Source: Pseudorhodoferax sp. Leaf274 (GTDB lineage Bacteria; Pseudomonadota; Gammaproteobacteria; Burkholderiales; Burkholderiaceae_C). Taken from it: a stretch of DNA of 64,000 nt. The position numbers and the translations under genes are program-made. The notes beneath the pieces were generated by a model. That model was not told where the DNA came from. It worked only from the letters and a program-made list of their open reading frames with translations, and ran no database searches. Location of the stretch: positions 127,227 through 191,226 of the forward strand of contig NZ_LMNA01000004.1 in the NCBI RefSeq assembly GCF_001422445.1, in the 5' to 3' direction. Shown piece by piece: positions 38,329 to 64,000 of the stretch (its first letter is position 1; the number at the start of each line of letters is the position of its first letter).

Positions 38329-39276
38329 TTACGCGCGCCGCAGGTAGTCGACCACGGCGTCGCTCCAGGCCTCGGGCTGCTGGTCGACGATGTCGTGCGT
38401 GCCGCCTTGCAGCGCGTGGAACGCGAAGTCCGGCCGCGCGGCCGCGGCCCGCAGCGCCATCGGGTAGATGTCGTCGCCCGTGTTGGTCAGCACCATGGTC
38501 GGGTGCTGGATGCGGGGCAGCGCCGCGGCCTGGTCGTAGACGAACGCGCTGTCGTGGCCCCAGGTGTAGGGCCCCAGGCCCTGGTACTTCTCCACCACGA
38601 TGCGGGTGATGGTCTGCGGATCGGGGTCCGGCCCGTACATGCGCACGCGCATCTGGAAACTGGTCAGCAGGTGCGAGCCGTCCAGCTTGGGCTTGCCGCG
38701 CTCGTGGCTGCGGCCGATGTTGGCCAGGAACTTCTGCCGCTCCTCCTCGTTGACCGGGAACGGCCCGTTGAGGATGAGCCGCCGCACGCGCTTGGGAAAC
38801 TGCAGCGCGATCTCGGTCGCGCTGAGCGAGCCGGTGTGGTGGCCCAGCACGTCGACGCGCTCGATGCCCAGGTGGTCCAGCACCGCCACGAACGAGCTGG
38901 CCCACTCTTCGACGCGCGGCATCTTCGGCGTGGGATCGGAGAAGCCGAAACCCGGCGTGTCCACCGCGATGAAGCGCACGTTGCGCTGCACCAGCGGCTG
39001 GAAGGCGCGCTCGAACTGGCGAGCCGACGCGGGCGACTGGTGCAGCAGCAGCAGCGGCAGCTCGCCCGCCGGCGGCTTGACCAGGCCGACGGAGTCGTGG
39101 AAATGCACTAGGCCATGCGGCCCGCGGGCATAGCCGCGGCCCATGATGCCGGCGAACGGCACGGGGCGCGGGGCGGCGGCCGGGCCAGAGCCTGCGAGAT
39201 CTGCCGCACTGGCCGCGCCGGCCGCGACGGAAGCGACACAGGCGCTGGCGCCCAGAAAGCTCCTGCGGTTGTTCAT
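38329..39276 (-). CDS. Tat-exported alpha/beta-hydrolase-fold protein with altered nucleophile elbow
   Basis: The 315-residue protein has a twin-arginine signal (M-N-N-R-R-S-F-L-G-A ending around A-S-A-A-D, residue 26) and an alpha/beta-hydrolase core with H-Q-S-P-A-S-A (oxyanion region) at 79-85, V-D-T-P-G-F-G near 105-111 and a C-terminal G-G-T-H-D. The nucleophile elbow reads G-H-H-T-G (145-149), so the usual Ser, Cys or Asp is His. This either abolishes classical hydrolysis or marks a cofactor-free lyase/oxygenase-type relative. It lies downstream of the TonB receptor and monooxygenase genes on the same strand. The ATG at 39276 begins the Tat signal; another ATG nine codons upstream is possible. 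Confidence 0.85.
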   Translation of the reverse strand: MNNRRSFLGASACVASVAAGAASAADLAGSGPAAAPRPVPFAGIMGRGYARGPHGLVHFHDSVGLVKPPAGELPLLLLHQSPASARQFERAFQPLVQRNVRFIAVDTPGFGFSDPTPKMPRVEEWASSFVAVLDHLGIERVDVLGHHTGSLSATEIALQFPKRVRRLILNGPFPVNEEERQKFLANIGRSHERGKPKLDGSHLLTSFQMRVRMYGPDPDPQTITRIVVEKYQGLGPYTWGHDSAFVYDQAAALPRIQHPTMVLTNTGDDIYPMALRAAAARPDFAFHALQGGTHDIVDQQPEAWSDAVVDYLRRA

Positions 39277-39314
39277 GCCTTGGTCCTCGGGTCCGTTGGA
39301 CATCGCTCGGCGGA

Positions 39315-41801
39315 TCAGAACGTGTAGCGCATGCGGGCGCCGAAGCTGCGCTCGTCCTGCACGTTGACCAGCACGCCCTGCTGCGAGAAATTCGTCACCG
39401 GCGTCATGCTCAGGTCGACGATGCGCGATGCCGACGTCCAGCCGCGGTGGTTGAACACATTCTTGACGAACAGCTCGATGGAGAAGTTGTCCTTCTCGAA
39501 ACCCTGGCGCAGGTCGAAGCTGTTGTACGAGCCGACCTGGAAGAAGTTGTAGTCGGTGTCCCAGCGCTTGCCCACGAAGGTCACGTCGCCGCGCGTGAAG
39601 GCCTTCCATTCGTCGCTGAGCGTGTAGCGGTAGGTGATGTTGGCGGCTGCGGTCACGCTGGGCGTGCGCGCCAGGCTGTTGCCGTCGAAGTTCACGGCCG
39701 GGCGCGTCAGCACGGCATTGGTGGCGTCCACGCGGCTCCACTTGGCGCGCTTCACGTCGAGGTAGGCACCCATGGCCCACTGGCGCGAGAGCTGCGCATC
39801 CACCGCCAGTTCCAGGCCGGTCACGCGCGCCTCGTTGCCGATGGTCACGCCCGAGCCGGAGGCGGTGAAGGGGCAGGCCGCCGTGCCGACGGTCACGCCG
39901 CAGCTGGTCGGGTTGAAGACCGAGGTGCTGGACATGCGGTCCTTCCACGTCTGCGTGTAGATGGCCGCGGAATACTGCCAGCTGGGGTTCACGCGCTGCT
40001 TGATGCCCAGCTCCAGCGAGTCGAGCTTGGGCTGCTCCGTGAACTCCGAGATGTTCGGGTACAACGAGCGCAGGTAGGCCTTGCCGGCCGCGCTGGCGTT
40101 GATGTAGCCGCTGTTGGCCGACAGCGGCTGAACGCCGCGCGCCGCGCTGATGTAGGTCGACATGCTCTCGATGGGCTTGAAGCGCAACGTCAGGCGCGGC
40201 AGCAGGTTCTTGGCGGTGTTGTCCGTCTTCAGGCCTGCAGGAGAGGTGAACTCCACCGTGTCCTTCTGGTAGCGTGCCTCGCCCGTCAGCGTCCAGCGCT
40301 CGTTGAAGTCGTATTCGGCCGAACCGTACACCGCCGGCACCGACGAGCTCACGTTCTGGTAGTTGCCCGTGCCGATGGCCGGCGTGGTCTGGCCCAGCGC
40401 CATGCTCATGTCGATCTGCTGGAGCTGGAAGGTGGAGCGGAAGTAGCTGGCGCCCAGCGTGCCGCGCAGCGGCGAGCGCGGGTTGGTCGACAGGCGTGCG
40501 TCCACCGTCAGGTCCTTGCTCAGCATCGACTGCTGCGCGAGGAAGTTGGAGGCCTTGCTGCGGTCCACGTCGTAGATGCTGCTGGAGTAGGACTCGTTGA
40601 AGCCGGCGTTCAGCGCCAGGTCCATCTGGTGGGGCAGCTCGACGCCGCCCTGCGCCGACACGCGCTTGATCTCGCGCAGCAGGCCGGTGTGGTCCAGCTT
40701 CGGCGCCTTGGCCAGGAACGGTTCGTTCAGCGCGTTGTCGACCATCGCGGCCACCGCGTTGGCGGGGATGGCGGTGTTGGCATCGAACACACGCGAGCCC
40801 ACGGTGCCGTAAGAAGGCAGTCCGCCGCAGAAGTACGCCACGCTCGGCGTGAAGTTCACCGGGTTTCCGGCGGCGTCGTTGCCGGTGTAGGTGCGGCCCT
40901 GGCAGCTGGTGTTGCCTGCGGCAGGGATCAGGCCGGTGGCGGGGGTGGAATCCTCGTCGCGCTGGTAGTGCGCGCGCAGGCGCACCCACGACTTGTCGGT
41001 CGGCGTCAGGTACAGCGTGCCGCTGACGAAGCGGGTCTCTTCCTCGCCCAGCGCACCGCCGTCGGTGGCGCGGAACTGCGCGGCCTTGTTGCGGCTACCG
41101 AAGGACAGGCGGCCGTTCAGCACGTCGGTCTTGATCGGCCCTTCGATGGTGGCATCCAGGTCCTTGGAGCCCCGGTTGTCGACGGTGGTGTTGACCGCTC
41201 CGCCCAGTTCGGACGAGGGATTGCGGGTGATGAAGTTCACCGCGCCGCCGAAGGTGCTGCGGCCGAAGAAGGCGTTCTGCGGGCCCTTGAGCACCTCCAC
41301 GCGCGCCACGTCGGTCATGCCGATGCTGGCCACGCCGCCGGAGATGAAGATGCCATCGATGAAGACACCGCCCGAGTTCTCCCAAGGGAAGTTCAGCTCG
41401 CCCTGCAGGCCGCGGAAGGTGGTCACGCCGGTGGAGCGGCCCTGCGCGCCGGAGCCCTGCGACGAGCTGAAGTTGAAGCCGGTCTGCGCGGCCAGGTCCT
41501 TCACCTCGGTGATGCCGCCGGCGCGCAGCTCCTTGTCCGACAGCGACTGCATGGAGATCGGCACCTCCAGCATCTTCTCGTTGCGCTTGCGCGCCGTCAC
41601 GCTGACGGTAGGCAGCGCGTTGGACGTGGCCGTCTCGGGTGGCGTTTCGGCAGCGGCCGGGGAGGTGCTGGCTTCCACGGGGACAGGCGCTTGCACCTGT
41701 GCGATGGCCGAGCTCGCGAACATCGCGCAGGCCATGGCGACGGCGGTGGGCACCAGACGGTGCGGGCGACGCACAGCGTCTGGAAGTTGAGAGGTCTTCA
41801 T
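39315..41801 (-). CDS. TonB-dependent outer-membrane receptor
   Basis: The 828-residue protein has a signal peptide (cleavage near A-I-A-Q, residue 35), a short TonB-box region (L-P-T-V-S-V-T-A), a plug domain (about 75-190) with V-E-V-L-K-G-P-Q-N-A-F-F-G-R, and a beta-barrel ending in Y-T-F, the normal C-terminal aromatic. It resembles catabolic rather than siderophore receptors (F-G-G-A-V-N-F-I-T-R-N-P), a class often used for plant-derived or aromatic compounds. GGAG lies eight bases upstream of the ATG at 41801. Co-directional genes are the FAD monooxygenase before it and the His-elbow hydrolase after it. Predicted role: energised uptake of the substrate of the catabolic island. Confidence 0.92.
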   Translation of the reverse strand: MKTSQLPDAVRRPHRLVPTAVAMACAMFASSAIAQVQAPVPVEASTSPAAAETPPETATSNALPTVSVTARKRNEKMLEVPISMQSLSDKELRAGGITEVKDLAAQTGFNFSSSQGSGAQGRSTGVTTFRGLQGELNFPWENSGGVFIDGIFISGGVASIGMTDVARVEVLKGPQNAFFGRSTFGGAVNFITRNPSSELGGAVNTTVDNRGSKDLDATIEGPIKTDVLNGRLSFGSRNKAAQFRATDGGALGEEETRFVSGTLYLTPTDKSWVRLRAHYQRDEDSTPATGLIPAAGNTSCQGRTYTGNDAAGNPVNFTPSVAYFCGGLPSYGTVGSRVFDANTAIPANAVAAMVDNALNEPFLAKAPKLDHTGLLREIKRVSAQGGVELPHQMDLALNAGFNESYSSSIYDVDRSKASNFLAQQSMLSKDLTVDARLSTNPRSPLRGTLGASYFRSTFQLQQIDMSMALGQTTPAIGTGNYQNVSSSVPAVYGSAEYDFNERWTLTGEARYQKDTVEFTSPAGLKTDNTAKNLLPRLTLRFKPIESMSTYISAARGVQPLSANSGYINASAAGKAYLRSLYPNISEFTEQPKLDSLELGIKQRVNPSWQYSAAIYTQTWKDRMSSTSVFNPTSCGVTVGTAACPFTASGSGVTIGNEARVTGLELAVDAQLSRQWAMGAYLDVKRAKWSRVDATNAVLTRPAVNFDGNSLARTPSVTAAANITYRYTLSDEWKAFTRGDVTFVGKRWDTDYNFFQVGSYNSFDLRQGFEKDNFSIELFVKNVFNHRGWTSASRIVDLSMTPVTNFSQQGVLVNVQDERSFGARMRYTF

Positions 41802-41971: not shown

Positions 41972-41987
41972 AGCCGCGCGCGCGGCT
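41972..41987 (-). terminator. GC palindrome at the end of the monooxygenase gene
   Basis: A perfect 16-base palindrome (AGCCGCGCGCGCGGCT) overlaps the monooxygenase stop codon region and precedes the 184-base gap to the TonB receptor gene. It has no T tract on the minus strand, so it may attenuate rather than end transcription. Confidence 0.3.
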
Positions 41988-43191
41988 ACTGGATGGCGGC
42001 GGCCTGCTCCAGGCTCGTGAACATGGCCTGCTTGAGCAGGTAGGCGCGGCGCGCGGCGCGGTCCTTCATGAGCCTGCCCAGCGCGTCGGCACGCTCGGCG
42101 CGGGCGCTGGCCCAGCCATCGCGCATCAGGCGTGTGCTCTCGATGGTCTGGGCCTGCACGAAGTCGCGTGTGATGGTCTGGCGCTGGCGCTCGTACAACG
42201 CGGTCTGCTGCGCGGCGTCCGCGCCGTGGCGCAGCACCTGCACCAGCTTGTCGCAGGCGTTGATGGCGTCGTGCACGCCGCTGTTCATCCCGAAGCCGCC
42301 CATCGGGCTGTTCAGGTGCACGGCATCGCCGGCCAGCAGGATGCGGCCCACCGCGAAGCGCTCGCACACGCGCTGGTGCACGCGGTAGATCGTGCGGTGC
42401 CGGGTGGCCACGTCGCAGTCGCGGCCCAGCATGCGGCCGAAGACGCCGTTCTTGTAGTCCTCCGAGACCAGCTGCGCGTCGCTGAACCCGGCCGGCGCAG
42501 GCACCAGGACGCGCCACATCCCGGGCACCCGCAGCACCACCATCCACTCCTTCGGATCGGAGATGTAATTGACGTGGCTCAGGTTGTCGAAGGCCTCCTC
42601 GATCGGGTGCTCGGTCGAGAAGCAGACGAAGCGGTCGTCGTAGGTGAAGCCGGGGAACTGCAGCCCCAGCACCTTGCGCACCACGCTGCTGGCGCCGTCG
42701 GTGGCCAGCAGATGGCGCGCGCGCCAGCGCTCGACCGCGTTGGCGCTCTCGACATAGGCCGTCACGCCCTCCTCGTCCTGCTCGACGAACAGAACGCGCT
42801 GGCCCTGCAGCACCGTGGCACTGGGCTCGCCCTGCACCTGCTCGACGATGCTGGCCGTCACCCGGTGCTGCTCGCACTGGATGCGGTAGGGAAAGCGGGT
42901 GCGGTCGGCGATCTCGGTCAGGTCGAACTCGAACACGTCGCCGCTCTGGCGGTCGCGGTACTGGTAGACCGGCGCCTTCAGCCCCTGGCCGAACAGCGTG
43001 CCGGCGGCACCCAGGTCGTCCAGGATTTCCAGCGTCGGCGCGTGGTAGGTGGATGCACGCAGGTCGGTCGCGGAGCTGGCCAGGGGTTCGATGGCCGTGA
43101 CCGCAATGCCGCGGCGGGCCAATGACAGCGCGGCCGTGGCGCCAACCGGCCCCAGGCCGGCGACCAACACCTCGGTGTGGTGGGTGATCAT
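41986..43191 (-). CDS. FAD-dependent aromatic-ring monooxygenase (PHBH fold)
   Basis: The 401-residue flavoprotein has the Rossmann fingerprint G-L-G-P-V-G-A-T-A-A near residues 11-20, a G-D-A-V-H-L-N-S-P-M-G-G-F-G-M-N motif near 275-290 that binds the FAD ribityl and pyrophosphate, and A-T-D-G-A-S-S-V-V-R near 155. It belongs to the UbiH/MhpA-like single-component hydroxylases, which use NAD(P)H and oxygen to hydroxylate aromatic or heteroaromatic substrates. The start at 43191 (M-I-T-H-H-T-E-V) is the normal family N-terminus; upstream codons are open but unlike the family. It is the first gene of a minus-strand unit and divergent from the cytochrome-amidohydrolase operon. Confidence 0.9.
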   Translation of the reverse strand: MITHHTEVLVAGLGPVGATAALSLARRGIAVTAIEPLASSATDLRASTYHAPTLEILDDLGAAGTLFGQGLKAPVYQYRDRQSGDVFEFDLTEIADRTRFPYRIQCEQHRVTASIVEQVQGEPSATVLQGQRVLFVEQDEEGVTAYVESANAVERWRARHLLATDGASSVVRKVLGLQFPGFTYDDRFVCFSTEHPIEEAFDNLSHVNYISDPKEWMVVLRVPGMWRVLVPAPAGFSDAQLVSEDYKNGVFGRMLGRDCDVATRHRTIYRVHQRVCERFAVGRILLAGDAVHLNSPMGGFGMNSGVHDAINACDKLVQVLRHGADAAQQTALYERQRQTITRDFVQAQTIESTRLMRDGWASARAERADALGRLMKDRAARRAYLLKQAMFTSLEQAAAIQ

Positions 43192-43411: not shown

Positions 43412-43807
43412 ATGCAGATCAATTGGGGGCGGATGCTCTGGACAGCGCCGGCGGCGTGGCTGCTCGCAGGCGCGGCCTGGTCGCAGGGCGCACCAGCGGC
43501 CGCGAGCGTGGACATGGGCAAGCGCCTGTTCATGCGCTGCGCGGCCTGCCACGAGGCCAAGGCCGGCGGCCCCGCCAAGATGGGGCCGCACCTGCAGGAC
43601 CTGATCGGCCGCCCGGCAGGCGGGCTGCCCAACTACGGCTACTCCGCCGCCATGAAGTCCAAGAAGTTCGTCTGGGACGAGGCGCAGCTGCACGCCTGGC
43701 TCGCCCGGCCGACGGCCGTGGTGCCCGGCACGACGATGGCGTTCATGGGCATGCCCGACGCGGCCGAACGCCAGGCGCTCATCGACTACATGCGCACGCT
43801 CAAGTAG
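43412..43807 (+). CDS. Periplasmic class I cytochrome c
   Basis: This 131-residue exported protein has a signal peptide (cleavage near A-W-S-Q, residue 25) and one haem-binding motif C-A-A-C-H around residue 47, with the distal Met in G-T-T-M-A-F-M-G-M near 112. The size and the R-C-A-A-C-H-E-A-K start resemble small cytochromes c2 or c550. It begins a plus-strand group. Because the island also encodes an IorAB-type molybdenum hydroxylase without a flavin subunit, this cytochrome is a candidate electron acceptor. That partnership is inference, since the hydroxylase genes are 11 kb away. Confidence 0.9.
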   Translation: MQINWGRMLWTAPAAWLLAGAAWSQGAPAAASVDMGKRLFMRCAACHEAKAGGPAKMGPHLQDLIGRPAGGLPNYGYSAAMKSKKFVWDEAQLHAWLARPTAVVPGTTMAFMGMPDAAERQALIDYMRTLK

Positions 43808-43938: not shown

Positions 43939-44625
43939 ATGGAAACATCCGACAAGACAGCCCGCCAGATCTGGGCCGACATCAAGGCCAACCCGCAGCG
44001 CGCCCGCTTCGGCTACGGCCGCAAGGCGGTGCTGGTGAACATCGACTTTCAGTGCGCCTACACGCGCGTCGACGAGTTCAAGACAGCGTATGAGACCGAC
44101 CCGCGCCAGATCGAGCATGTGAACGCACTGGCCAGGCGCTTCCGAGCGCTCGGGTGGCCGGTGGTCTGGACGCATGTGGCCTACGCCGAGTCAGGCGAGG
44201 ATGCCGGCGTCTGGGGCACGCGCACCGACACGCCCGACTCGCTGCAGAACATCAAGCACGGCTCGCGCCGGGCAGCCTTCGACGCGCGTTGCGAGATCCA
44301 GACCGGCGCCCACGGGCGCGACCTGGTCTACAGCAAGCGCATGCCCTCGCCGTTCTTCGAGACGCCGCTCCAGTCGCTGCTGGTCTGGCACCAGGTCGAC
44401 ACGGTGGTCATCACCGGCGGATCGACCTCGGGCTGCGTGCGCGCCGCGGCGGTGGATTCGCTCTCGCGCGGATACCGCACCATCGTGCCCGAGCAGTGCG
44501 TGGCCGACAAGCACGAGTCCTACCACTTCGCCAACCTGACCGACCTGATGCTCAAGTACGCCGACGTCGTCGACGTCGCCGAGACGCTGGGCTGGCTCGA
44601 CGAACGGGCGCAGGAGTCCGCATGA
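43939..44625 (+). CDS. Isochorismatase-family amidohydrolase (cysteine hydrolase)
   Basis: The 228-residue protein has the catalytic triad of the isochorismatase-like hydrolases: Asp 36 in V-N-I-D-F-Q, Lys 133 in Y-S-K-R-M-P-S and Cys 166 in G-G-S-T-S-G-C-V-R, with the cis-peptide context before Cys. This form matches N-carbamoylsarcosine amidase, maleamate amidohydrolase (NicF) and RutB-like enzymes rather than true isochorismatases. It probably releases ammonia or carbamate from a linear amide formed after ring opening. Its stop overlaps the start of the first deacetylase-like gene (ATGA), so their actions are probably consecutive. Confidence 0.9.
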   Translation: METSDKTARQIWADIKANPQRARFGYGRKAVLVNIDFQCAYTRVDEFKTAYETDPRQIEHVNALARRFRALGWPVVWTHVAYAESGEDAGVWGTRTDTPDSLQNIKHGSRRAAFDARCEIQTGAHGRDLVYSKRMPSPFFETPLQSLLVWHQVDTVVITGGSTSGCVRAAAVDSLSRGYRTIVPEQCVADKHESYHFANLTDLMLKYADVVDVAETLGWLDERAQESA

Positions 44626-45539
44626 AAGCCGACACCGGCCACTACGACCACTGGCCCTACCACGGCCGGCCGAAGATCGGCTGGCCCGGTGGCGCGCGCG
44701 TGGCCTTCTGGGTGGCGCCCAACATCGAGTTCTACGAACTGGCGCCGCCCGCCAACCCGGCGCGCGCGGCCTGGCCGCATCCCTCGCCCGCGGTGCCCGG
44801 CTACTCGATCCGCGACTACGGCAACCGCGTGGGCCACATGCGCCAGATGCAGCTGCTCGACAAGTACGGCGTGCGCGGCTCGATCTCGCTTTCCACCGCG
44901 CTGTGCACGCACCACCCGGAGATCGTCCGCATGTGCCGCGAGCGCGACTGGGAGTTCTTCAGCCACGGCATCTACAACACGCGCTACACCTACGGCATGT
45001 CCGAGGCGCAGGAGCGCGCGATGATCCGCGAATCCATCGAGACCATCGCCGAGCACACCGGCCGCACGCCCGCGGGCTACCTCGCGCCGGCCCTGTCGCA
45101 CAGCGAGCACACGCTGGACCTGTTCGCCGAGCTCGGCGGCACCTACACCTGCGACCTGTTCCACGACGACCAGCCCACGCCGCTGCGCGTGCGCGGGGGC
45201 CAGCGCTTCGTCTCGGTGCCCTACTCGCTGGAATTGAACGACACCATCGCCTACGTGGTGAACAAGGTCGAGCCGCGCCGCTACGGGCAGATGATCAAGG
45301 ACAGCTTCGACCGCCTGTACGCCGAGGGCGCCGAGTCCGGCACGGTGATGTGCATCCCCACGCACAACTACCAGGTGAGCTGCCCGCACCGGCTCAAGGC
45401 CTTCGAGGATGCGCTGGCTTACATCACCGGCCACCCCGACGTGTGGGTGACCACCGGCCGCGAGATCGCCGAGCACTTCCTCGCGCACCACCACGACGCC
45501 GCGCTGGCCGACATCGCGCGCCAGAACGGAGGCGCCTGA
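44622..45539 (+). CDS. Polysaccharide-deacetylase-fold protein, PuuE-like (copy 1)
   Basis: The 305-residue cytoplasmic protein has the NodB/PuuE-type barrel. The N-terminal metal motif is altered to V-A-P-N-I-E-F-Y-E (residues about 33-41), F-S-H-G-I-Y-N-T-R near 105 keeps a metal His, and P-T-H-N-Y near 250 and S-I-R-D-Y-G-N-R-V-G near 62 are conserved. Such PuuE-like proteins include cofactor-free or metal-dependent cyclic-amide hydrolases (for example allantoinase-type) rather than chitin deacetylases. No signal peptide is present. It overlaps the amidohydrolase gene and is followed after two bases by a second, diverged copy. Likely role: opening or processing an amide ring. Confidence 0.82.
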   Translation: MKADTGHYDHWPYHGRPKIGWPGGARVAFWVAPNIEFYELAPPANPARAAWPHPSPAVPGYSIRDYGNRVGHMRQMQLLDKYGVRGSISLSTALCTHHPEIVRMCRERDWEFFSHGIYNTRYTYGMSEAQERAMIRESIETIAEHTGRTPAGYLAPALSHSEHTLDLFAELGGTYTCDLFHDDQPTPLRVRGGQRFVSVPYSLELNDTIAYVVNKVEPRRYGQMIKDSFDRLYAEGAESGTVMCIPTHNYQVSCPHRLKAFEDALAYITGHPDVWVTTGREIAEHFLAHHHDAALADIARQNGGA

Positions 45540-45541
45540 CC

Positions 45542-46471
45542 ATGGCCCTGGACCCCATCCATCTCGACTACCCCATGCGCCGCTACGGCATGGACCACGA
45601 CCGCTACGCCTGGTCCATGCTGACCGACCGGCCACCCGTGCGATGGCCCGGCGGCAAGCCGTTGGCGGTGTGGATCAACGTGAGCCTGCAGCACTTTCCG
45701 ATGAACCCGCAGGCCAGGATCAGGCTGCCGGGCTCGATGACCATGCCGCACCCCGACCTGCGGCATTTCACGCTGCGCGACTACGGCAACCGCGTGGGCA
45801 TCCACCGCTTCCTGCGCGCCTTCGACGCCCACGGCATGCGCCCCAGCTTTGCCATCAACGCCGAGCTGGCGCTGCGCTACCCGGCGCTGATGCGCGCGAT
45901 CCGCGAACGTGGCGACGAGGTGCTGGGCCACTCCTGGTCGATGGACACGCCGCACGCCGGCGGCATCGCCATCGCGGACGAGCGCGCGCTCGTGCAGCGG
46001 TCGCTGGCCACGCTGCGCGAACTCAGCGGCCAGGCCGTGCGCGGCTGGCTCAGCCCCGGCAAGCTGCAGGGCCCGAACACGCCCGAGCTGCTGAAGGCCG
46101 AGGGCATCGACTACTGCGCGGACTGGGTCAACGACGAGTTGCCCTACCGCTTCCACACCGCGCAGGGCGACCTGTGGAACCTGCCGCTGGCCACCGAGAT
46201 CGAGGACCGCTTCGTGGTCATGGACAACCTGCACGCCGAGGCCTCGTGGGCCGAGCAGGTGATCGACGCGTTCGAGCTGCTGCTGGCCGAGGCGCGGGCG
46301 CAGGGCGGGCGGCTGCTCACGCTGTCGCTGCACCCCTGGGTGATGGGCCAACCGCACCGCATCCAGCACCTGGAGACCGTGCTGCGCCACATCGCTGCGT
46401 GCGGCGAAGCCTGGCAGGCGCCGCCCGGGGCGATCGTCGACGCCTTCGCGGCGCAGCAGGTGGCGGCATGA
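45542..46471 (+). CDS. Polysaccharide-deacetylase-fold protein, PuuE-like (copy 2)
   Basis: The 309-residue protein is related to copy 1 across its whole length (both have R-D-Y-G-N-R-V-G and W-P-G-G before the first strand) but only moderately similar. Its first motif reads V-W-I-N-V-S-L-Q-H, the second G-H-S-W-S-M-D-T, and there is a C-terminal S-L-H-P-W-V-M-G-Q-P-H-R, the last being typical of PuuE/allantoinase-like proteins. The two may form a heteromer or act on successive intermediates. It begins two bases after copy 1 and overlaps the lyase gene (ATGA), so the four genes from 43939 to 47427 form one tightly coupled unit. Confidence 0.82.
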   Translation: MALDPIHLDYPMRRYGMDHDRYAWSMLTDRPPVRWPGGKPLAVWINVSLQHFPMNPQARIRLPGSMTMPHPDLRHFTLRDYGNRVGIHRFLRAFDAHGMRPSFAINAELALRYPALMRAIRERGDEVLGHSWSMDTPHAGGIAIADERALVQRSLATLRELSGQAVRGWLSPGKLQGPNTPELLKAEGIDYCADWVNDELPYRFHTAQGDLWNLPLATEIEDRFVVMDNLHAEASWAEQVIDAFELLLAEARAQGGRLLTLSLHPWVMGQPHRIQHLETVLRHIAACGEAWQAPPGAIVDAFAAQQVAA

Positions 46472-53183: not shown

Positions 53184-53236
53184 CACGACTCCAGACAACA
53201 ACGGGTTCGCAGCCTAGGCGACGCAGCCCGTGCAAT

Positions 53237-56382: not shown

Positions 56383-57063
56383 TCAGAACGGCTTGACCGC
56401 CCCCAGGAACGCGATGCTCAGGATGATCGCCCAGTAGCAGTAGGCCGTGAAGCGGCTCAGGCGCAGCGAGCGCTCGAGCGTGGCCTCCACCTTGGGGTTC
56501 GGGCCCTTGGCCAGCTCGCGGAACATCATGGTCCACTCGCGCATCACGAAGCGCAGGTACAGGCCGATCACCAGCGTGCCCGAGTACATCAGGATCTTGG
56601 CGGAGAACCAGCGCTGGCCCGGCTCGGCCATGAACGGGCCATGGCCCAGCAGCGAGCCGACGGCGCAGACCACCAGCAGCGGGATCAGCACGAACCGCAC
56701 GCGCTCGTCGATCTTGGTCAGGCGGATGCCCAGGTCGCTCTCGCGGCAAAAGAAGGCCGACAGGCACAGGCCCAGCCACAGCGCGGCCAGCACCCACATG
56801 GCCACGAGCCAGCCGCCGCCGAAGGGCTGCGTGCCCCAGAAGTGCCCCATGTGCATGCCCAGCGGCAGCAGCAGGATGATGCCCGAGCGCGCCAGGATGT
56901 CGATGCGGTAGGCCGTCTCCATGTGGCGGCGCCGCTCTTCCATCGGCAGCCTGCGGTTCACGATGTTGACGGAGGTGTTGAAGATGCCCCACTCGCCGCC
57001 GAGCCAGTACACCATGCAGACGATGTGCACCCATCGCAGCACGGCCAGTTCGCTGATTTCCAT
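56383..57063 (-). CDS. Six-helix inner-membrane protein of unknown function
   Basis: This 226-residue protein has six likely transmembrane helices (about 8-27, 52-72, 84-106, 122-142, 155-174, 204-222). Histidines in L-R-W-V-H-I-V and G-M-H-M-G-H-F-W lie in or near the membrane and could bind haem or a metal; the R-W-V-H-I-x-x-M-V-Y-W-L-G-G opening is like CopD/DUF2269-type membrane proteins. It is the last gene of the minus-strand group and is followed by a terminator. A link to the molybdenum hydroxylase, for example as a membrane electron acceptor, is possible but unproven. Confidence 0.75.
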   Translation of the reverse strand: MEISELAVLRWVHIVCMVYWLGGEWGIFNTSVNIVNRRLPMEERRRHMETAYRIDILARSGIILLLPLGMHMGHFWGTQPFGGGWLVAMWVLAALWLGLCLSAFFCRESDLGIRLTKIDERVRFVLIPLLVVCAVGSLLGHGPFMAEPGQRWFSAKILMYSGTLVIGLYLRFVMREWTMMFRELAKGPNPKVEATLERSLRLSRFTAYCYWAIILSIAFLGAVKPF

Positions 57064-57259: not shown

Positions 57260-58285
57260 TCAGATGCCGCGGACCAACACCTTGCCCAGGTGCGCTGCGG
57301 ACTGCAGGTGGGCATAGGCCGCGGGCGCCTCGTCGAACGCGAAGCTGCGGTCGATCACGGGCACGAGCCCGCCCGTGGCCGCCGCGCGCACGAGCCGCTG
57401 CAGCATCGCGCGGCTGCCCGACGCGATGCCCTTGAGCACGATGTTCTTGAGCACCAGCGTGGTGACGTTCGGCAGCTGCGTGGCGCCGTAGCCGCCCAGC
57501 GCGCCGATGAGGGCGATGCGCGCGTTCGGCGCCGCCGCGTCGAGCGAGGCGCCCAGCGTGGCCAGGCCGCCCGTCTCCAGCACGATGTCGGCGCCCTGGC
57601 CGCCGCTGGCGCGCAGCAGCGCGGCGGCCCAGTCGGGGTGGGTGGTGTAGTTCACCGTGATCTCGGCACCCAGCGCGCGGGCCTGCGCCAGCTTGGCATC
57701 GCTGGAGGAGGTGATGGCCACGCGCGCGCCGTGCAGCCTGGCCAGCTGCAGCGCGAACATGGACACGCCGCCCGTGCCCAGCGTGAGCACCAGGTCGCCG
57801 GCCCGCACGCGGCCGAACTCCACCAGCGCATGCCAGGCCGTGAGGCCGGCCGCGCACAGGGGCGCGGCCTGCGCGTCGGACAGCGCATCGGGCACGGGCA
57901 CCAGCGCAGCGGCCGGCACTTCCACCTGGCCGGCCAGCCAGCCGTCCAGCGAGGTGCCCAGGTCGGCGCCGAACACGGCGGGATCGAAGTCGCCGTCCAG
58001 CCAACCCACGAAGTGCGGGCAGACGACGCGCGTGCCGACGGCCGGGCCGGTGCAGCCTTCGCCGAGCGCGAGCACCTCGCCCACGCCGTCGGACAGCGGC
58101 ACCCGCCCGGCCGCGCGCAGCGGGCCGTAGCGGCCGTGCAGCACCAGCAGGTCGCGGTGGTTCAGGCAGGCGGCGCGCATGCGCACCAGGGCCTGGCCGC
58201 GGCCAGGCCGGGATTGCGGCCGCATCACGGGGCGCAGGCTGGCCAGGCCTTGCTGGCTGCCGATCTCGAAGGCGGGAATGGTCAT
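57260..58285 (-). CDS. NAD(P)-dependent MDR dehydrogenase / quinone-reductase-like
   Basis: The 341-residue MDR protein lacks the Cys-rich structural-zinc lobe. It has N-H-R-D-L-L-V near residue 42, a G-T-G-G-V-S-M-F-A-L-Q cofactor loop near 165-175, and T-S-S-S-D-A-K at the strand end, which favours NADPH. It resembles zinc-independent quinone-oxidoreductase/alcohol dehydrogenase proteins. The upstream gene on this strand is the molybdenum hydroxylase large subunit (74 bases away), so it is likely to be in the same message. Predicted role: reduction of a double bond or carbonyl in the pathway. Confidence 0.88.
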   Translation of the reverse strand: MTIPAFEIGSQQGLASLRPVMRPQSRPGRGQALVRMRAACLNHRDLLVLHGRYGPLRAAGRVPLSDGVGEVLALGEGCTGPAVGTRVVCPHFVGWLDGDFDPAVFGADLGTSLDGWLAGQVEVPAAALVPVPDALSDAQAAPLCAAGLTAWHALVEFGRVRAGDLVLTLGTGGVSMFALQLARLHGARVAITSSSDAKLAQARALGAEITVNYTTHPDWAAALLRASGGQGADIVLETGGLATLGASLDAAAPNARIALIGALGGYGATQLPNVTTLVLKNIVLKGIASGSRAMLQRLVRAAATGGLVPVIDRSFAFDEAPAAYAHLQSAAHLGKVLVRGI

Positions 58286-58359
58286 CGTCGATAGTTCCGA
58301 AGGAAATGGGCGCGCGCCACCCCCTCCCGGAGCAGGAGGCGGTATGGCGCGGCGGGAGA

Positions 58360-60543
58360 TCAGGCAGCCAGCCGGATCGGCAGGCTGCGCACCGGCTTGC
58401 CGGTCAGCCGCGCCACGGCGTTGGCCACGGCCGCGAGGATGGGCACGCTTCCCGGCTCGCCGATGCCGGTGGGCGCGGCGTCGCTGGCGATGCTGAGCAC
58501 CTCCACCTGCGGCATCTCGGGCAGGCGCAGCACCGGCGCATCGTGGAAGTTGCCCTGCTGCACGCGGCCGGCGTCCAGCGTCACCTCGCTGTGCAGCACG
58601 GCACTGAGGCCGAACGCGATGCCGCCCTCCATCTGGGCGCGCAGCGTGCCGGGGTTGATGACCAGCCCGCAATCCACCGCGCAGACCACGCGCTCCACCA
58701 CGATCCGGGTGCCCTCGATGCGCACCTGCGCGACCTGGGCCACCACCGTGCGGTAGGCCTCCTGCACCGCCAGGCCCAGGGCGCGGCCGGCGGGCAAGGG
58801 CCGGCCCCAGCCTGCATGCGCGGCGGCCAGACGCAGCGCAGCGGCCAGGCGCGGCTGCCCGTCCAGGTGCGCCAGCCGGAAGGCCAGCGCGTCCTGGCCG
58901 GCCGCGGCGGCCAGCTCGTCCATCAGCACTTCCTTGCTGAAGGTGGTGTGGTTGTAGCCCAGCGCGCGGTAGGTGTGCACGGACACGCCCACGTCGGGCC
59001 GCACCCAGCGCAGGCGCACGTGCGGCACCGTGTAGCGCTCGGCCAGGTGGCCTTCGGTGACGAAGGGATCGGGCCGCATCGGCGAGCCCGGCCGCGCCAT
59101 GCTGGGCGAGAAGGACTGCGCCACGATGGTCTGCTCCACCGCCACCAGCCGGCCCTGGGCGTCGAGGCCGGCGCGCAGGCGGTGCAGGTTCATCGGGCGG
59201 TAGTAGCCGCTCTGGATTTCGTCGGTGCGCGTCCACATCAGCTTGACGGGGCGCGTGTCGCCCCGGGCCTGTTGCGCGCGCAGCAGCGCTGCCAGCTCGC
59301 CGATCCAGTCGGCCGAGAAGGTTGCGCGCCGGCCGAAGCTGCCGCCCGAGGGCAGCAGGTGCAGCACCACGCTGGCGGGCGGCAGGCCCAGGATGCGCAC
59401 CAGGGCGGCGTGGTCGGCGCTGGGGTTCTGGCAGCCGGCCCAGATGTCGCAGCGGCCGTCCTGCCACTGGCCCACGGCGGCCATGGGCTCCATCGGCTGG
59501 TGCGCCAGGTAGGGCAGCTCGAAATCGGCCGACAGCACGGTGGCGGCAGCCGCCAGGGCCTGGGCGGCGTCGCCGCGCACCAGGGCGTCCACGCCGGGCG
59601 CACCGGCCGTGGCCAGGCGCCGGAACTCGGCCTGCAGTTCGGCGGTGGAGCGCTGCTCGGCCTGCGCATCGTCCCACGCCACCTGCAGCCGATCGCGCGC
59701 CTGCAGCGCCTGCCAGGTGCCGTCGGCCACCACCGCCACGCCCTGCGGCAGCCTGTGCACGGCGCGCACGCCGGGCGCGGCCAGGGCGGCGCTGGCGTCC
59801 ACGCTGCGCACGCTGGCGCCGAAGCGCGGCGGGCGCAGCAGCACGGCCACCAGCTGCCCGGGGCGCTGCACGTCGATGCCGTAGGGCACGGCGCCGCGCG
59901 CCAGTTCCGCGGCACCGGTGCGCGGCCGTTCGCGGCCGACCAGCGCGTAGGCCGCGCGCGGCTTGAGCGGCACGCCGGCCGGCACCGGCAGGCGCGCAGC
60001 CGCGTCGGCCAGTTCGCCATAGCCGGCCGCCCGCCCGCTGGCGCCGTGCAGCACGCGCCCACGGTGCGCGGTCAGCGCCTGCACCGGCACGCCCCAGCGC
60101 TCGGCGGCCGCCTGCAGCAGCATGGCGCGCGCCACGGCGCCGGCCTCGCGCAGCTGCTGCCAGCTGTTGGACACCGAGGTCGAGCCGCCCGTGGTCTGCC
60201 AGCCGAACAGCGTGTGCTTGTAGCGCGGCGGGTCGAACGGCGCGGGCTCGGTGCGCACGCGGCTCCAGTCGGCGTCCAGCTCCTCGGCGAGGATCGTGGC
60301 CAGGCCGTTGGCGATGCCCTGGCCCATCTCCAGGTGCTTGACGAGGACGGTGACCTCGCCGCTGGGTGCGATGCGCACGAAGGGCTGGGCCAGGCCCTCG
60401 CCCGCATCCGCACCCACGGCGGCGGCCTCCGCCGGCGGCAGCCCCAGCACCAGCCCGGCGCCGGCCAGTGCGATGAACCCGCGGCGCGTGGTCCGCAGCA
60501 CCGCGTCCGGGACGCCGGTGCCGGCGCTGCGGTCGGCCGTCAT
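58360..60543 (-). CDS. Molybdopterin large subunit of an IorB-type hydroxylase
   Basis: The 727-residue protein has a twin-arginine signal (T-T-R-R-G-F-I-A-L-A-G, residues about 18-28) and the xanthine-oxidase-family molybdopterin domains. Q-T-T-G-G-S-T-S near 112, G-G-S-F-G-R-R near 400 and the active-site Glu loop G-I-G-E-P-G-S near 695 are visible. This layout is the isoquinoline-oxidoreductase type (IorB), exported, two-subunit and FAD-free, and usually passing electrons to a cytochrome. Its start overlaps the hydantoinase B stop (ATGA). The partner 2Fe-2S subunit is encoded at 54607-55080 on the opposite strand. Predicted role: hydroxylation of a heteroaromatic ring or aldehyde. Confidence 0.92.
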   Translation of the reverse strand: MTADRSAGTGVPDAVLRTTRRGFIALAGAGLVLGLPPAEAAAVGADAGEGLAQPFVRIAPSGEVTVLVKHLEMGQGIANGLATILAEELDADWSRVRTEPAPFDPPRYKHTLFGWQTTGGSTSVSNSWQQLREAGAVARAMLLQAAAERWGVPVQALTAHRGRVLHGASGRAAGYGELADAAARLPVPAGVPLKPRAAYALVGRERPRTGAAELARGAVPYGIDVQRPGQLVAVLLRPPRFGASVRSVDASAALAAPGVRAVHRLPQGVAVVADGTWQALQARDRLQVAWDDAQAEQRSTAELQAEFRRLATAGAPGVDALVRGDAAQALAAAATVLSADFELPYLAHQPMEPMAAVGQWQDGRCDIWAGCQNPSADHAALVRILGLPPASVVLHLLPSGGSFGRRATFSADWIGELAALLRAQQARGDTRPVKLMWTRTDEIQSGYYRPMNLHRLRAGLDAQGRLVAVEQTIVAQSFSPSMARPGSPMRPDPFVTEGHLAERYTVPHVRLRWVRPDVGVSVHTYRALGYNHTTFSKEVLMDELAAAAGQDALAFRLAHLDGQPRLAAALRLAAAHAGWGRPLPAGRALGLAVQEAYRTVVAQVAQVRIEGTRIVVERVVCAVDCGLVINPGTLRAQMEGGIAFGLSAVLHSEVTLDAGRVQQGNFHDAPVLRLPEMPQVEVLSIASDAAPTGIGEPGSVPILAAVANAVARLTGKPVRSLPIRLAA

Positions 60544-62435
60544 GCCGCTGCGCTCGCGCGTCCCGGCCACACGGGCTGGCGCGGTGCCGGCAGGCCGGTC
60601 TCCTCCAGGCAGCGCTCGCGCAGCACGGCGATCTCGCGGCCGCGGTCGAACACGGCCAGCGGTGCGCGGCTGGCGCGCAGGTCAGCACGCAGCGCGGCGG
60701 TGGCGGCGGCGTCCACCGTGCCTTCGGCGCCGATGCACACGCCGTAGCTGCGCGCGCCCTGGGCCGTGACCAGGCCGCGCCGCACCTCCAGCGCCACGAG
60801 TTCGGCATCGCGCTCCAGCGGGTCGCCCCAGCCGCCCGCGCCCCAGGTCACGAAGTGCAGCTGGTCGCCGGCCTGCACCGCGATGGCGTCGCACTTGGCC
60901 GGCAGCGACTGCTGGCTGCCGTCCACGCGCTCCAGCGTCTTCCACGAGCGCTGGGCCGGCTGGCCGCCGTTCACGCCCCACGGCGGGATGAACCAGCGGT
61001 CGTCGTGGATCGAGATGTGGCCGGCTTCGGTGAAGCGGTAGGTCATGAGGATGCCGTTGCCGCCGCGGAACTTGCCGGCGCCGCCCGAATCGGGCACGGT
61101 CTCGTAGCGCTCGATCACCATCGGGAAGTAGCGCTCCAGGAACTCGTTGGGCACGTTGGTGAAGCCGGGCCACAGCGAGTGGCCGTCGGCGCCGTCGCCG
61201 AACGGGCGGCCCGGGATGCCGCCGAAGCCGATCTGGAACAGCTGGAACCAGTCGCCCTGGCCCTGGCCGTCCTCGCGCGCGCGGTGGCCCGAGAACATCA
61301 AGTGCGGGCTGGACGAGAAGCCGGCCGCGCACAGGAACTCCGGCGTCTTCTGGCCCAGCAGCGCGCCCAGCACGTCGAAGATGCGGCCCAGCGCATGGGT
61401 GCGGCAGCTCAGCGCGGCCGGGAACTTGGGCTTGAGCAGCGAGCCCTCGGGGATGCGCACGTCCACGAGGTCGTAGAAGCCGTCGTTGAACAGGATCTGC
61501 GGGTCGAACACCATGATCATGTAGATGCCGAAGAACATCTTGAACATGTTCTCGTTGAGCAGGTAGTTGATCGACGAGCTGGACTGCGGGTCGGTGCCGG
61601 CGAAGTCCAGGACCACGCGCTCGCCCTCGCGCCACATCGTGCACTTGATCTTGAACGGGCCGAAGCCGCGGCCGTCGTCGCACAGGTAGTCCTCGAACGA
61701 CACCGGCGTCTCGCCGATCTGCGTGCCGATCAGGTGCTTCATGGCACGGTGGTTGCGCGCCAGCAGTTCGGCCGTGGCCGCATCGAACACCTCGTCGCCG
61801 AAGCGCTCGCACATCTCGTCCACGCGACGCGCCGCCACGCGGCACGAGGCCACCAGCGCGTGCAGGTCGGCCTTGCACCATTCGGGCATGCGCGACTGGT
61901 TGACGTTGATGCGCACGATGTCTTCCTGCAGCACGCCCTTGCGGTAGAGCTTGACCGGCGGCAGGCGGAAGCCTTCCTCGAAGATGCTGGTGGCATCGGT
62001 GGGCAGCGAGCCGGGCACCTTGCCGCCCACGTCGGTCATGTGGCCGAACATCGCGGCCCAGGCCATCAACCGGCCCTTGCGAAACACCGGCAGGATCACC
62101 AGCTGGTCGTTCAGGTGGCTGATCGCGCCTTCGCACGAGTAGGGGTCGTTCAGGAAGATGACATCGCCGTCCTCGATGTCGCCGTCGTAGTTGCGCAGGA
62201 AGCCGTCGATGAACGAGCCGAACTGGCCCACGACCATGCGGCCATGGCGGTCGGCGATCAGCGGAAAGGCGTCGCCCTGCTCGCGGATGCCGGGCGACAG
62301 CGCGGTGCGGAACAGGGTGGCGTCCATCTCCACGCGCGCATTGCGCAGCGCGTTCTCCAGGATGTCGAGCGTGATGGGATCGACCGTTGCGCTGCCCAGG
62401 GGCGTGGTGGCGGTCTCGATGATGCGTGCGGGCAT
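60540..62435 (-). CDS. Hydantoinase B / oxoprolinase beta-like subunit
   Basis: The 631-residue protein belongs to the HyuB/oxoprolinase family (family length 500-650). Visible markers are D-P-I-T-L-D-I-L near residue 20, F-L-N-D-P-Y near 94-99 and G-G-A-G-K-F-R-G-G-N-G near 460. Family members form complexes with HyuA for ATP-dependent opening of cyclic amides (hydantoins, 5-oxoproline, N-methylhydantoin) or carboxylation of ketones. Its stop overlaps the hydroxylase gene and its start is 22 bases from the HyuA stop, so the three are one unit. Both subunits together suggest cyclic-amide hydrolysis in the island. Confidence 0.92.
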   Translation of the reverse strand: MPARIIETATTPLGSATVDPITLDILENALRNARVEMDATLFRTALSPGIREQGDAFPLIADRHGRMVVGQFGSFIDGFLRNYDGDIEDGDVIFLNDPYSCEGAISHLNDQLVILPVFRKGRLMAWAAMFGHMTDVGGKVPGSLPTDATSIFEEGFRLPPVKLYRKGVLQEDIVRINVNQSRMPEWCKADLHALVASCRVAARRVDEMCERFGDEVFDAATAELLARNHRAMKHLIGTQIGETPVSFEDYLCDDGRGFGPFKIKCTMWREGERVVLDFAGTDPQSSSSINYLLNENMFKMFFGIYMIMVFDPQILFNDGFYDLVDVRIPEGSLLKPKFPAALSCRTHALGRIFDVLGALLGQKTPEFLCAAGFSSSPHLMFSGHRAREDGQGQGDWFQLFQIGFGGIPGRPFGDGADGHSLWPGFTNVPNEFLERYFPMVIERYETVPDSGGAGKFRGGNGILMTYRFTEAGHISIHDDRWFIPPWGVNGGQPAQRSWKTLERVDGSQQSLPAKCDAIAVQAGDQLHFVTWGAGGWGDPLERDAELVALEVRRGLVTAQGARSYGVCIGAEGTVDAAATAALRADLRASRAPLAVFDRGREIAVLRERCLEETGLPAPRQPVWPGRASAAA

Positions 62436-62457
62436 GGTGTGTTCTCTCCCCCGGTGT

Positions 62458-64000
62458 TCAGGCGGGCTGGGCCGGGTTGATCAGGATGTTGCCGAAGGTG
62501 TCCACGGTGCCGACGTGCGCGGCCAGGATGACGGTGGTCGAGTCCATCTCGCAGACCACGGCCGGGCCGGGGATCACGTCGCCGGCGCGCAGCTTGGCGC
62601 GCTCGTAGATCACGCCCGGCACGAAGCCGCCCGTGGCCCACATCTGGTGGTCGCGCAGCTTGGCCGCGATGGGGTTGCCGTCGCCGCGCGGCAGTTCCAG
62701 CGCGGGCAGGTCCAGCGACTTGCCCAGCGCCACGGCGCGCAGGTTCACGAGTTCGGTCTCGGTGTCCATGCTGAACGTGAACAGGCGCTGGTGTGCGTCG
62801 TGGAAGGTAGCGTTCAGACCGGCCAGGCCGGTGCCCGCGACGAAGTCGTCCAGCGCCACCGGCAGCGGCACCTCGAAGGCCTGGCCGGCATAGCGCATGT
62901 CGGCCTCGAAGCGCAGTTCGATGTCCGCCAGCGGAACGCCCTCGTCCAGCAGGGATTGCTGCACCTGGTCGCGCATGGTCTGCAGCACCTCGAGCACCTG
63001 CGCATCGCTGCTGCGCGAGACCAGCTGCGAGAACGAGCGCGCCGTCTCGGTGCGCATGCGCGTGGTGGCGTCGCCCAGCGCGCACAGCACGCCCGGCGAC
63101 ACCGGCGAGACCGCCGGCCACGCGTTCATGAGCCTGGCCACGGCGTTCACATGCAGCGGGCCGGCACCGCCGAAGCCCATCAGCGCGAAGTCGCGCGGGT
63201 CGTAGCCCTGCTGCACCGAAATCATGCGCAGCGCGCCGAACATGTTCTCGTTGACGATGTCGATGATGCCGCGCGCCGCGTCGTAGAGGTCCACGCCCAG
63301 GTCGTCGGCGATCTTCTGCACGGCCGCACGCGCGCCTTCGCGGTCGAGCTTGAACGCGCCGCCCAAAAGGTTCTCGGGCAGGTAGCCCAGCACCACGTTG
63401 GCATCGGTCACGGTGGCCACCGTGCCGCCGCGGCTGTAGGCCACGGGGCCGGGCACGGCGCCGGCCGATTCGGGGCCCACGCGCAATGCCTTGGTGAGCT
63501 CAGGGATCTTGGCGATGGAGCCGCCGCCTGCGCCCACCGTCTTCACGTCCAGTGCCGACACGCGCACCGTGAGGTGGCCCACGTCGGTGGTGCGCACCAG
63601 GCGCGGCTCGCCGTTCTCGATCAGCGCCACGTCGGTCGAGGTGCCGCCCACGTCCAGCGTGAGGATGTTCTTGAGGCCTGCGTTCTTCGCCACCCACAGC
63701 GCGCCGGTCACGCCGCCGGCAGGGCCCGACATCAGCAGCGACACGGGCTTTTCCTCCGAGGCCTCGGACGACATCAGCCCGCCGTCCGAACGCAGCAGCG
63801 AGAGGCGGCCCTGCATGCCCAGTTCGCGCAACCGCGTGCGCAGGTTGCGCACGTAGCGGCTCACGATGGGGCGCACCGAGGCATTGGCCACGGTGGTCAG
63901 CGTGCGCTCGTACTCCTGCATCTCGGGCAGCACGACGTGCGAGAGCGAGACCGGCACGTCCGGCATGAGCTCGGCCGCCAGCTCGGCCACGCGGCGCTCG
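62458..64000 (-). CDS. Hydantoinase A / oxoprolinase alpha-like subunit, partial
   Basis: The frame is open to the right edge of the window, so the N-terminal part (about 180 residues of the usual 690) is missing; about 514 residues are visible. It has the actin-like ATPase fold of HyuA proteins: L-D-V-G-G-T-S-T-D (phosphate loop) near visible residue 120, G-A-G-G-G-S-I-A-K near 160, V-T-D-A-N-V-V-L-G and G-F-G-G-A-G-P-L near 280. It works with the HyuB protein encoded next. The unit most likely starts beyond the window, and a regulator or first enzyme may lie there. Confidence 0.92.
   Translation of the reverse strand, partial: ERRVAELAAELMPDVPVSLSHVVLPEMQEYERTLTTVANASVRPIVSRYVRNLRTRLRELGMQGRLSLLRSDGGLMSSEASEEKPVSLLMSGPAGGVTGALWVAKNAGLKNILTLDVGGTSTDVALIENGEPRLVRTTDVGHLTVRVSALDVKTVGAGGGSIAKIPELTKALRVGPESAGAVPGPVAYSRGGTVATVTDANVVLGYLPENLLGGAFKLDREGARAAVQKIADDLGVDLYDAARGIIDIVNENMFGALRMISVQQGYDPRDFALMGFGGAGPLHVNAVARLMNAWPAVSPVSPGVLCALGDATTRMRTETARSFSQLVSRSSDAQVLEVLQTMRDQVQQSLLDEGVPLADIELRFEADMRYAGQAFEVPLPVALDDFVAGTGLAGLNATFHDAHQRLFTFSMDTETELVNLRAVALGKSLDLPALELPRGDGNPIAAKLRDHQMWATGGFVPGVIYERAKLRAGDVIPGPAVVCEMDSTTVILAAHVGTVDTFGNILINPAQPA

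Follow-up and report, generated by a model that had tools for sequence, protein, structure and literature searches.

Cyclic imides, for instance those remaining from chlorophyll or bile pigments, are the probable substrates of a three-gene ring-opening cassette found in widely differing bacteria

The DNA analysed here is a window of 64,000 nucleotides from the 6.7-Mb genome of Pseudorhodoferax sp. Leaf274 (contig NZ_LMNA01000004.1, positions 127,227 to 191,226), in which codon-model gene calls combined with Pfam and NCBIfam scans gave 20 genes between 38329 and 63990. Among them is a translationally coupled core cassette of three genes (43939-46471), encoding the isochorismatase-type amidase ICH1 and the two PuuE-like proteins PuuE1 and PuuE2. 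The 20 genes make up the greater part of an accessory catabolic island, which measures about 50 kb. The island is bordered on the left (32127-38274) by genes for an Lhr-type helicase and a GGDEF-EAL protein and continues for at least 24 kb beyond the window, reaching at least a PrpB-like gene at 88437 and possibly 91962 (positions above 64000 are extended window coordinates on the same contig), so that the end at 64000 given in an earlier note on this DNA falls inside it. Every gene class named in that note was found among the 20 genes; its list passed over a membrane protein (56383-57063), and HyuA is cut by the window edge.

ICH1 (43939..44625, plus strand), assigned by Pfam and the proposed half-amidase, is the first gene of the cassette and keeps an Asp-Lys-Cys triad (D36, K133 and C166) that is conserved across six aligned cassette proteins. 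PuuE1 (44622..45539, plus strand), which overlaps ICH1 by 4 bp, is the proposed cyclic imide hydrolase on the basis of families and predicted fold, and PuuE2 (45542..46471, plus strand; Pfam and NCBIfam) could be its partner or a second imide hydrolase. The predicted fold of PuuE1, a moderately confident model (mean predicted local distance difference test score, pLDDT, of 75.8) that is weak in the loops around 39-61 and 119-123, is nearest to the PuuE allantoinase 3cl6 (template modelling score 0.77, 30% identity), and phmmer matched the protein to 3cl6 and 3qbu. By this model PuuE1 has the PuuE-type polysaccharide-deacetylase fold of the cyclic imide hydrolases of the PuuE/HpPgdA group. Published descriptions of HxnM, the cyclic imide hydrolase of Aspergillus nidulans, give it more than 60% identity with the Pseudomonas putida imidase, HpPgdA as its closest structural relative and a place ahead of an amidase (PMC9304392, PMC8478523), and HpPgdA is in turn described as close to PuuE (PMC3084791). 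Compared by these descriptions, the cassette resembles HxnM of the A. nidulans nicotinate pathway and the imidase of P. putida YZ-26 in the PuuE/HpPgdA-group fold and in imide opening followed by an amidase, whereas the imide opened by HxnM is six-membered, its amidase is of the different PF01425 family and neither a hydratase nor a lyase takes part, and the cassette combines two PuuE-like genes with an isochorismatase. Judged from family and fold, the PuuE-like 'deacetylase-fold' proteins are most likely hydrolases of cyclic imides. The open-access literature, searched largely at the level of titles and abstracts, yielded no description of a cluster of this kind.

When 84,980 species genomes were scanned with PuuE1, at least 556 loci were confirmed, and the best 80 of these (hereafter the 80 relatives), with PuuE1 identities of 72-90%, belong to Beta- and Gammaproteobacteria, Kordiimonadaceae, Emcibacteraceae and Flavobacteriaceae. 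The cassette order, with gaps below 400 bp, is kept in 78 of the 80, the exceptions being a locus truncated at a contig end (L103) and one with a gap of 405 bp (L134). The deacetylase-fold proteins, counted as additions in the earlier note, therefore form a conserved core together with ICH1. Plasmids carry it as well: 71 records matched, and the cassette was present in all six that were inspected. Within the family of the window genome, a PuuE2 homologue at E<=1e-40 was found in 49 of 299 genomes, and the five best other family genomes each contained ICH1, PuuE1 and PuuE2 in this order (56-92%, 57-87% and 43-75% identity, respectively); an extra partial copy of the cassette lies at a contig end in G037. 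At E<=1e-90, PuuE1 was found in one of the six genomes of the window's genus, namely the window's own, and in 9 of the 398 genomes of its phylum.

A genome of another genus in the same family (G296) matches 16 of the 20 window proteins at 49-92% identity within one 120-kb stretch, in an order rearranged relative to the window. The remaining four are two proteins with weak matches, the alpha/beta-hydrolase (28%) and one medium-chain dehydrogenase/reductase (MDR) protein (32%), and two without a match, the bicupin and the membrane protein. Genes of the island extension recur there likewise, including the third PuuE-like protein PuuE3 (93%), PrpB (89%), LeuC (87%), an aldehyde dehydrogenase (82%) and a DUF1838 protein. 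Because 16 of the 20 proteins recur in one stretch of another genus, the gene grouping is more than chance, and since, in addition, none of the five congeners of the window genome has the core cassette, the window genes are one accessory catabolic island and not a nicotinate pathway. The five congeners also lacked a close match to HyuB, with a single match at 34%. The possibility raised beforehand that these genes never co-occur in other genomes is thus not borne out. Across the 80 relatives, the Mo hydroxylase, GH3, AMDase-like, MDR, TonB receptor and alpha/beta-hydrolase genes are not conserved near the cassette, each occurring there in 0-3 of the 80. At the Mo-hydroxylase end of the G296 island, a transposase-like gene, named by eye, adjoins (L042, G296:C2:1118123-1119199).

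Neighbours of the cassette were counted with tblastn (at least 35% identity, half coverage, within about 10 kb) at the 80 loci, of mean length 18 kb, and in 40 random control regions of 20 kb each. The control is weakened by its origin in nine hand-chosen genomes, five of which, G296 not counted, belong to the window's family, and by this difference in length. LeuC stands near the cassette at 32 of 80 loci and in 0 of 40 controls, followed by LeuD (31/80 versus 0/40), PrpB (21/80 versus 0/40), HMGL (18/80 versus 1/40), CoA-transferase (16/80 versus 1/40) and the second isochorismatase ICH2 (15/80 versus 0/40), with one-sided Fisher p values of 2e-7 to 6e-3 for these six. The 226-aa membrane protein (15/80, matches at >=55%), the FAD_binding_4 oxidase FAD4a (6/80) and HyuA (5/80, matches at >=45%) were each found in 0/40 controls, as were the flavin monooxygenase FMO1, the cytochrome c, the bicupin and the carrier MFS1 (2/80 each). 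GH3, the AMDase-like protein, the alcohol dehydrogenase, the quinone oxidoreductase, the TonB receptor and the alpha/beta-hydrolase were found at 0/80 loci and in 0/40 controls. At looser thresholds, for which controls were not run, a hydratase, lyase or CoA-transferase occurs at 56 of the 80 loci and a hydratase together with a lyase at 29. The wide gene set of the earlier note is thus common to G296, and the cassette, hydratase, lyase and CoA-transferase are common far more widely. A compact version in Halomonadaceae, Marinobacter and others consists of a TRAP-type transporter, LeuD, LeuC, a GntR regulator, PrpB, ICH1, PuuE1, PuuE2 and a FAD_binding_2 protein. The sphingomonad plasmids pJE1 and pTomTYG65b carry both the HMGL and the PrpB branch in one block, LeuD-LeuC-CoA-transferase / HMGL-ICH1-PuuE1-PuuE2-LeuC-LeuD-PrpB (the families of four proteins were checked), in which a 53% homologue of the window's Zn-alcohol dehydrogenase adjoins the PrpB-like gene; no paper on pJE1 was found in the open-access literature.

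In a tree, the cassette-adjacent LeuC proteins fall into three separate subfamilies: (i) short proteins of about 420-470 residues, 29-37% identical to the others; (ii) a clade of 14 rows (support 100/97), in which linkage to HMGL and CoA-transferase prevails; (iii) a PrpB-linked clade of 20 rows plus one (support 100/99). The LeuC of the window genome groups with that of G296. Nine of the 60 rows were removed beforehand because they duplicated a gene already included under a different locus id. Five 'biosynthetic' rows were labelled by their lack of cassette neighbours, and several long branches leave their placement unsure. As unrelated hydratases were recruited to the same place, hydration of a maleate-type acid is argued to follow the cassette. 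Six relatives (L061, L067, L073, L074, L080 and L126; for example L126:1513-5686) contain a second module, in which a PuuE-like gene stands with genes for a CoA-transferase, an acyl-CoA dehydrogenase, a mesaconyl-CoA-hydratase-like protein (PF19315, 88 bits versus a cut-off of 26.5) and a CitE-like lyase. It resembles the mesaconyl-CoA hydratase/CitE-type lyase route in its CoA-transferase, acyl-CoA dehydrogenase, PF19315 match and HpcH/HpaI lyase beside the PuuE-like gene, and possibly it would suit saturated (succinimide-type) imides, but it is absent from the window. A 242-aa orphan without a Pfam match, labelled DUF3108 in pJE1, also stands beside the cassette at 16 of the 80 loci at >=55% (e.g. 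L116:8139-8867). It was considered as a pigment-binding fold, but the best match of its predicted structure (mean pLDDT 89.8) was instead the DUF1849 beta-barrel 6ntr, which does not indicate a substrate.

Read from the observed genes, families and conserved linkage, a reaction order and a substrate class can be proposed, and it is fairly probable that the island is centred on the opening of a cyclic imide by the cassette, with half-amide hydrolysis, maleate hydration and cleavage to follow. PuuE1 and/or PuuE2 would open a five-membered cyclic imide to a half-amide, from which ICH1 would release ammonia and leave an alkyl-substituted maleate. The aconitase-family LeuC/LeuD could then hydrate this acid to a tertiary alcohol, to be split directly into a 2-oxo acid and a carboxylic acid by the PrpB-like lyase, the branch that looks intact in the window genome; alternatively, as may happen in relatives, a CoA ester would be formed by a family III CoA-transferase and cleaved by an HMGL-type lyase. 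The tertiary alcohol of a 2,3-dialkylmalate would be a suitable target for a PrpB-type lyase or, in the CoA ester, for one of the HMGL type. LeuC/LeuD-type enzymes naturally act on alkylmaleates (isopropylmaleate), and anaerobic nicotinate fermentation uses dimethylmaleate hydratase and dimethylmalate lyase. The island extension (85463-88437) likewise places an aconitase-type LeuC/LeuD beside a PrpB-like lyase of the phosphoenolpyruvate mutase/isocitrate lyase family, the combination of hydratase and lyase genes expected for dialkylmaleates. It differs from the fermentative system in its aerobic setting, its imide entry and its PrpB-like protein, whose best solved relatives are 4iqd (202 bits) and the petal death protein 1zlp (179 bits), ahead of the dimethylmalate lyase 3fa3 (145 bits). 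If the proposal is true, the cassette currently annotated as 'isochorismatase' and 'polysaccharide deacetylase' in many marine, freshwater and soil bacteria would be a general imide-opening device, its neighbours would mark out two or three pathways by which substituted maleates and succinates are degraded, and caution would be due in calling such clusters sugar or nicotinate pathways. An unlinked second acids locus exists in the window genome (L163:5681-12854, G000:C30), with genes for a family III CoA-transferase, TctC, LeuC, LeuD and a PrpB-like protein 76% identical to that of the island.

Several findings weigh against this proposal. PuuE1, PuuE2 and PuuE3 score 126.5, 89 and 130 bits, far below the NCBIfam equivalog cut-off for PuuE allantoinase (424.6 bits), and the scores for the isochorismatases and for caprolactamase are also far below their equivalog cut-offs (for CapAB, 394 and 233 versus 1000 bits each, with HyuA scanned without its N-terminus). 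ICH1 is closer to N-carbamoylsarcosine amidase (91 bits) than to the NicF-type structure (74 bits), and an N-carbamoyl substrate would also fit. The LeuC/LeuD of the island score above leucine-biosynthesis cut-offs, an acid-cleaving gene was missing from the examined stretch at 24 of the 80 loci, and about 17 of the 80 relatives are Halomonadaceae and so not independent. HyuB, at 6/80 loci (matches at >=55%) versus 0/40 controls, is not significantly enriched (p 0.08), nor is there enrichment of the Mo hydroxylase (molybdenum cofactor subunit 1/80 versus 1/40, FeS subunit 3/80 versus 2/40). Lastly, the window HMGL-like protein (46480..47427, plus strand; Pfam, NCBIfam and alignment) has Gly and Ser at the metal ligands D42 and N275 (D42G and N275S).

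All 21 other HMGL homologues compared keep six positions, the metal ligands D42, H233, H235 and N275 and the catalytic R41 and C266 of HMG-CoA lyase. The window protein passes the NCBIfam subfamily cut-off (267 versus 246 bits); with two ligands replaced it is probably inactive and appears to be a decaying or re-purposed enzyme. Because these ligands are lost, no CoA-transferase adjoins the gene and the HMGL-linked LeuC type of G296 is missing in the window strain, the PrpB branch is the likelier of the two in this strain. The CoA-ester ending proposed in the earlier note is accordingly plausible for relatives with a CoA-transferase and HMGL, and less so for the window. The HMGL-like gene retains good codon usage despite the two lost ligands.

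The fit of ICH1 to an N-carbamoyl substrate raises the alternative that the ring is a cyclic ureide, in which the PuuE-like proteins would open a hydantoin-, allantoin- or dihydropyrimidine-like ring, ICH1 would be an N-carbamoyl amidase and HyuA/HyuB an ATP-dependent hydantoinase of the same route. An N-carbamoyl amidase step occurs in creatinine or pyrimidine breakdown, N-carbamoylsarcosine amidohydrolase is among the best named relatives of ICH1, allantoinases are the closest named relatives of PuuE1 and PuuE2, and 5-6 of the 80 relatives, as well as Salipiger, have HyuA/HyuB homologues close to the cassette. The alternative is nevertheless rather unlikely: it leaves the commonest neighbours, the LeuC/LeuD hydratases and malate-type lyases, without a role, and PuuE1 and PuuE2 score far below the allantoinase equivalog cut-off (126 and 89 versus 425 bits). 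Further differences from PuuE allantoinase are the pairing of the genes and their neighbours.

It is also conceivable, if improbable, that several unrelated short pathways have merely come to adjoin one another in a catabolic hot spot: one of the cassette and its acids branch, one of GH3 and sugar acids, and one of HyuAB and the Mo hydroxylase. The rarity of most window genes as neighbours across the 80 relatives, apart from the cassette, hydratase, lyase, CoA-transferase, ICH2 and membrane protein, would agree with such a mosaic, but the recurrence of 16 of the 20 window proteins and many extension genes, rearranged, in the G296 stretch speaks against it, as do loci of Kordiimonadaceae, Emcibacteraceae, Arenicella and Porticoccaceae in which HyuA/HyuB occur together with HMGL and the cassette.

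Nicotinate-like pyridine breakdown, in which a Mo hydroxylase and a flavin hydroxylase would act before ring opening to an N-formylmaleamate-like product and an amidase, is very improbable even though these enzymes and NicD/NicE-like folds are present, since the scans of the 20 window proteins found no NicX-type ring-cleaving dioxygenase (the remaining genome was not searched by model), the NicD- and NicE-like proteins lack the catalytic Ser and the Cys pair, and neither their genes nor the Mo hydroxylase are conserved neighbours of the cassette. Membership in the Nic pathway was rejected for the missing NicX-type family and the lost NicD/NicE residues. The NicD-like alpha/beta-hydrolase fold protein (38329..39162, minus strand; Pfam and motif inspection) has GHHTG and no GxSxG nucleophile motif, and the AMDase/EutA-like protein (50773..51507, plus strand; Pfam and NCBIfam; 62% in G296), the NicE-like one, lacks cysteines at the places expected for the pair; it scores 48.8 versus 225 bits for arylmalonate decarboxylase and 60.5 versus 318 bits for EutA, below both equivalog cut-offs. 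The altered catalytic sites described in the earlier note are therefore real, and its broader interpretation, one catabolic island that would treat a nitrogen-containing ring by amide chemistry and hydroxylation, open it and deaminate it, is supported, but its nicotinate analogy is weak.

For the imide-opening proposal, the origin of the imide has to be considered. Natural substituted maleimides derive chiefly from tetrapyrroles. Mono- and dipyrrolic chlorophyll products are described in leaves and herbivore samples (PMC7318184), and methylethylmaleimide is named in literature on plants, seaweed and Spirulina. A tentative possibility is that aerobic bacteria use the cassette and its branches to degrade the pyrrole rings of tetrapyrroles (chlorophyll catabolites, bilins and haem), a route that has long been missing. 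A linear tetrapyrrole would enter via TonB and be oxidised to ring imides by large islands such as this; methyl/ethyl and methyl/propionate maleimides would feed the two hydratase-lyase branches, and a reduced ring would pass to the succinimide-type module with the mesaconyl-CoA-hydratase-like enzyme. Such an origin fits because there are two unsaturated branches, one saturated module, TonB uptake and oxidative enzymes. Of the plant enzymes of chlorophyll breakdown, a Staygreen homologue was found in none of nine genomes, in a search without a positive control, and the pheophorbide oxygenase (PaO) domain gave weak Rieske-type matches in four of the nine, above the cut-off only in the window genome (29 bits) and away from the island; these results neither support nor exclude the tetrapyrrole link.

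Upstream of imide opening, a larger N-heterocycle could be taken up by the TonB-dependent receptor (39315..41753, minus strand; Pfam barrel and plug), whose best NCBIfam models are siderophore and then haem receptors, all below cut-off, together with the island's own ExbB/ExbD. A periplasmic-type Mo hydroxylase with cytochrome c, flavin monooxygenases and FAD oxidases may then oxidise it. The 2Fe-2S subunit (54607..55080, plus strand; 49% in G296) and the molybdopterin subunit with a Tat-like leader (58360..60570, minus strand; 65% in G296) of this hydroxylase are encoded on opposite strands about 3.3 kb apart. They resemble IorAB-type Mo hydroxylases in these two subunits, in the nearby cytochrome c and in that no FAD subunit was seen, and differ from them in the opposite strands and in scores below equivalog cut-offs. 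The exported cytochrome c (43412..43807, plus strand; Pfam), with a start probably at 43412 (moved from 43508) and a signal-peptide-like leader, is likely the electron acceptor. FMO1 (41986..43191, minus strand; Pfam and NCBIfam; 81% in G296) is a FAD_binding_3 monooxygenase, and the FAD_binding_4 (GlcD/VAO-type) oxidase (51573..53186, minus strand) has matches of 63% in G296 and 41% in pJE1. HyuB (60540..62435, minus strand) and HyuA (62458..64000, on to 64518, minus strand), hydantoinase B/oxoprolinase and hydantoinase A/oxoprolinase by Pfam and NCBIfam, could open lactams on the route to the imide.

The glycosylated plant substrate suggested in the earlier note has its basis in a single gene, the GH3 glycoside hydrolase (47558..49717, plus strand; Pfam and NCBIfam; 73% in G296), and is not retained. 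The other window genes encode a DUF4437 bicupin (49844..50725, plus strand; Pfam), which has matches of 64-65% in L069 and L092; an MFS carrier (53376..54590, plus strand; 71% in G296); a Zn-dependent MDR alcohol dehydrogenase (55195..56319, plus strand), the one matched after the PrpB-like gene in pJE1; the 226-aa membrane protein (56383..57063, minus strand), often beside the cassette and weakly DUF2269-like (below the Pfam cut-off); and an MDR quinone-oxidoreductase-like protein (57260..58285, minus strand; 70% in G296).

The extension begins with the remainder of HyuA, a TPR-like protein, two ExbD and one ExbB (Pfam), and a proline-rich TonB-looking protein, named by eye and without a Pfam match. 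Two IclR regulators, a second MFS carrier, a second FAD_binding_4 oxidase, an amine-oxidase-type flavoprotein and a methyltransferase come next, then a second FAD_binding_3 hydroxylase, an alpha/beta-hydrolase, PuuE3, the aldehyde dehydrogenase and the DUF1838 protein. Its last part holds ICH2, LeuC, LeuD, the PrpB-like lyase and a TctC binding protein, followed by genes for a sulfatase and a LysR regulator as possible further members. On the other side of the island, the gene at 29636-31717 (minus strand) encodes a 693-aa protein without any Pfam match, and a TctA-family permease gene stands upstream at 28106-29620; TctC-like binding proteins were found near many relatives of the island.

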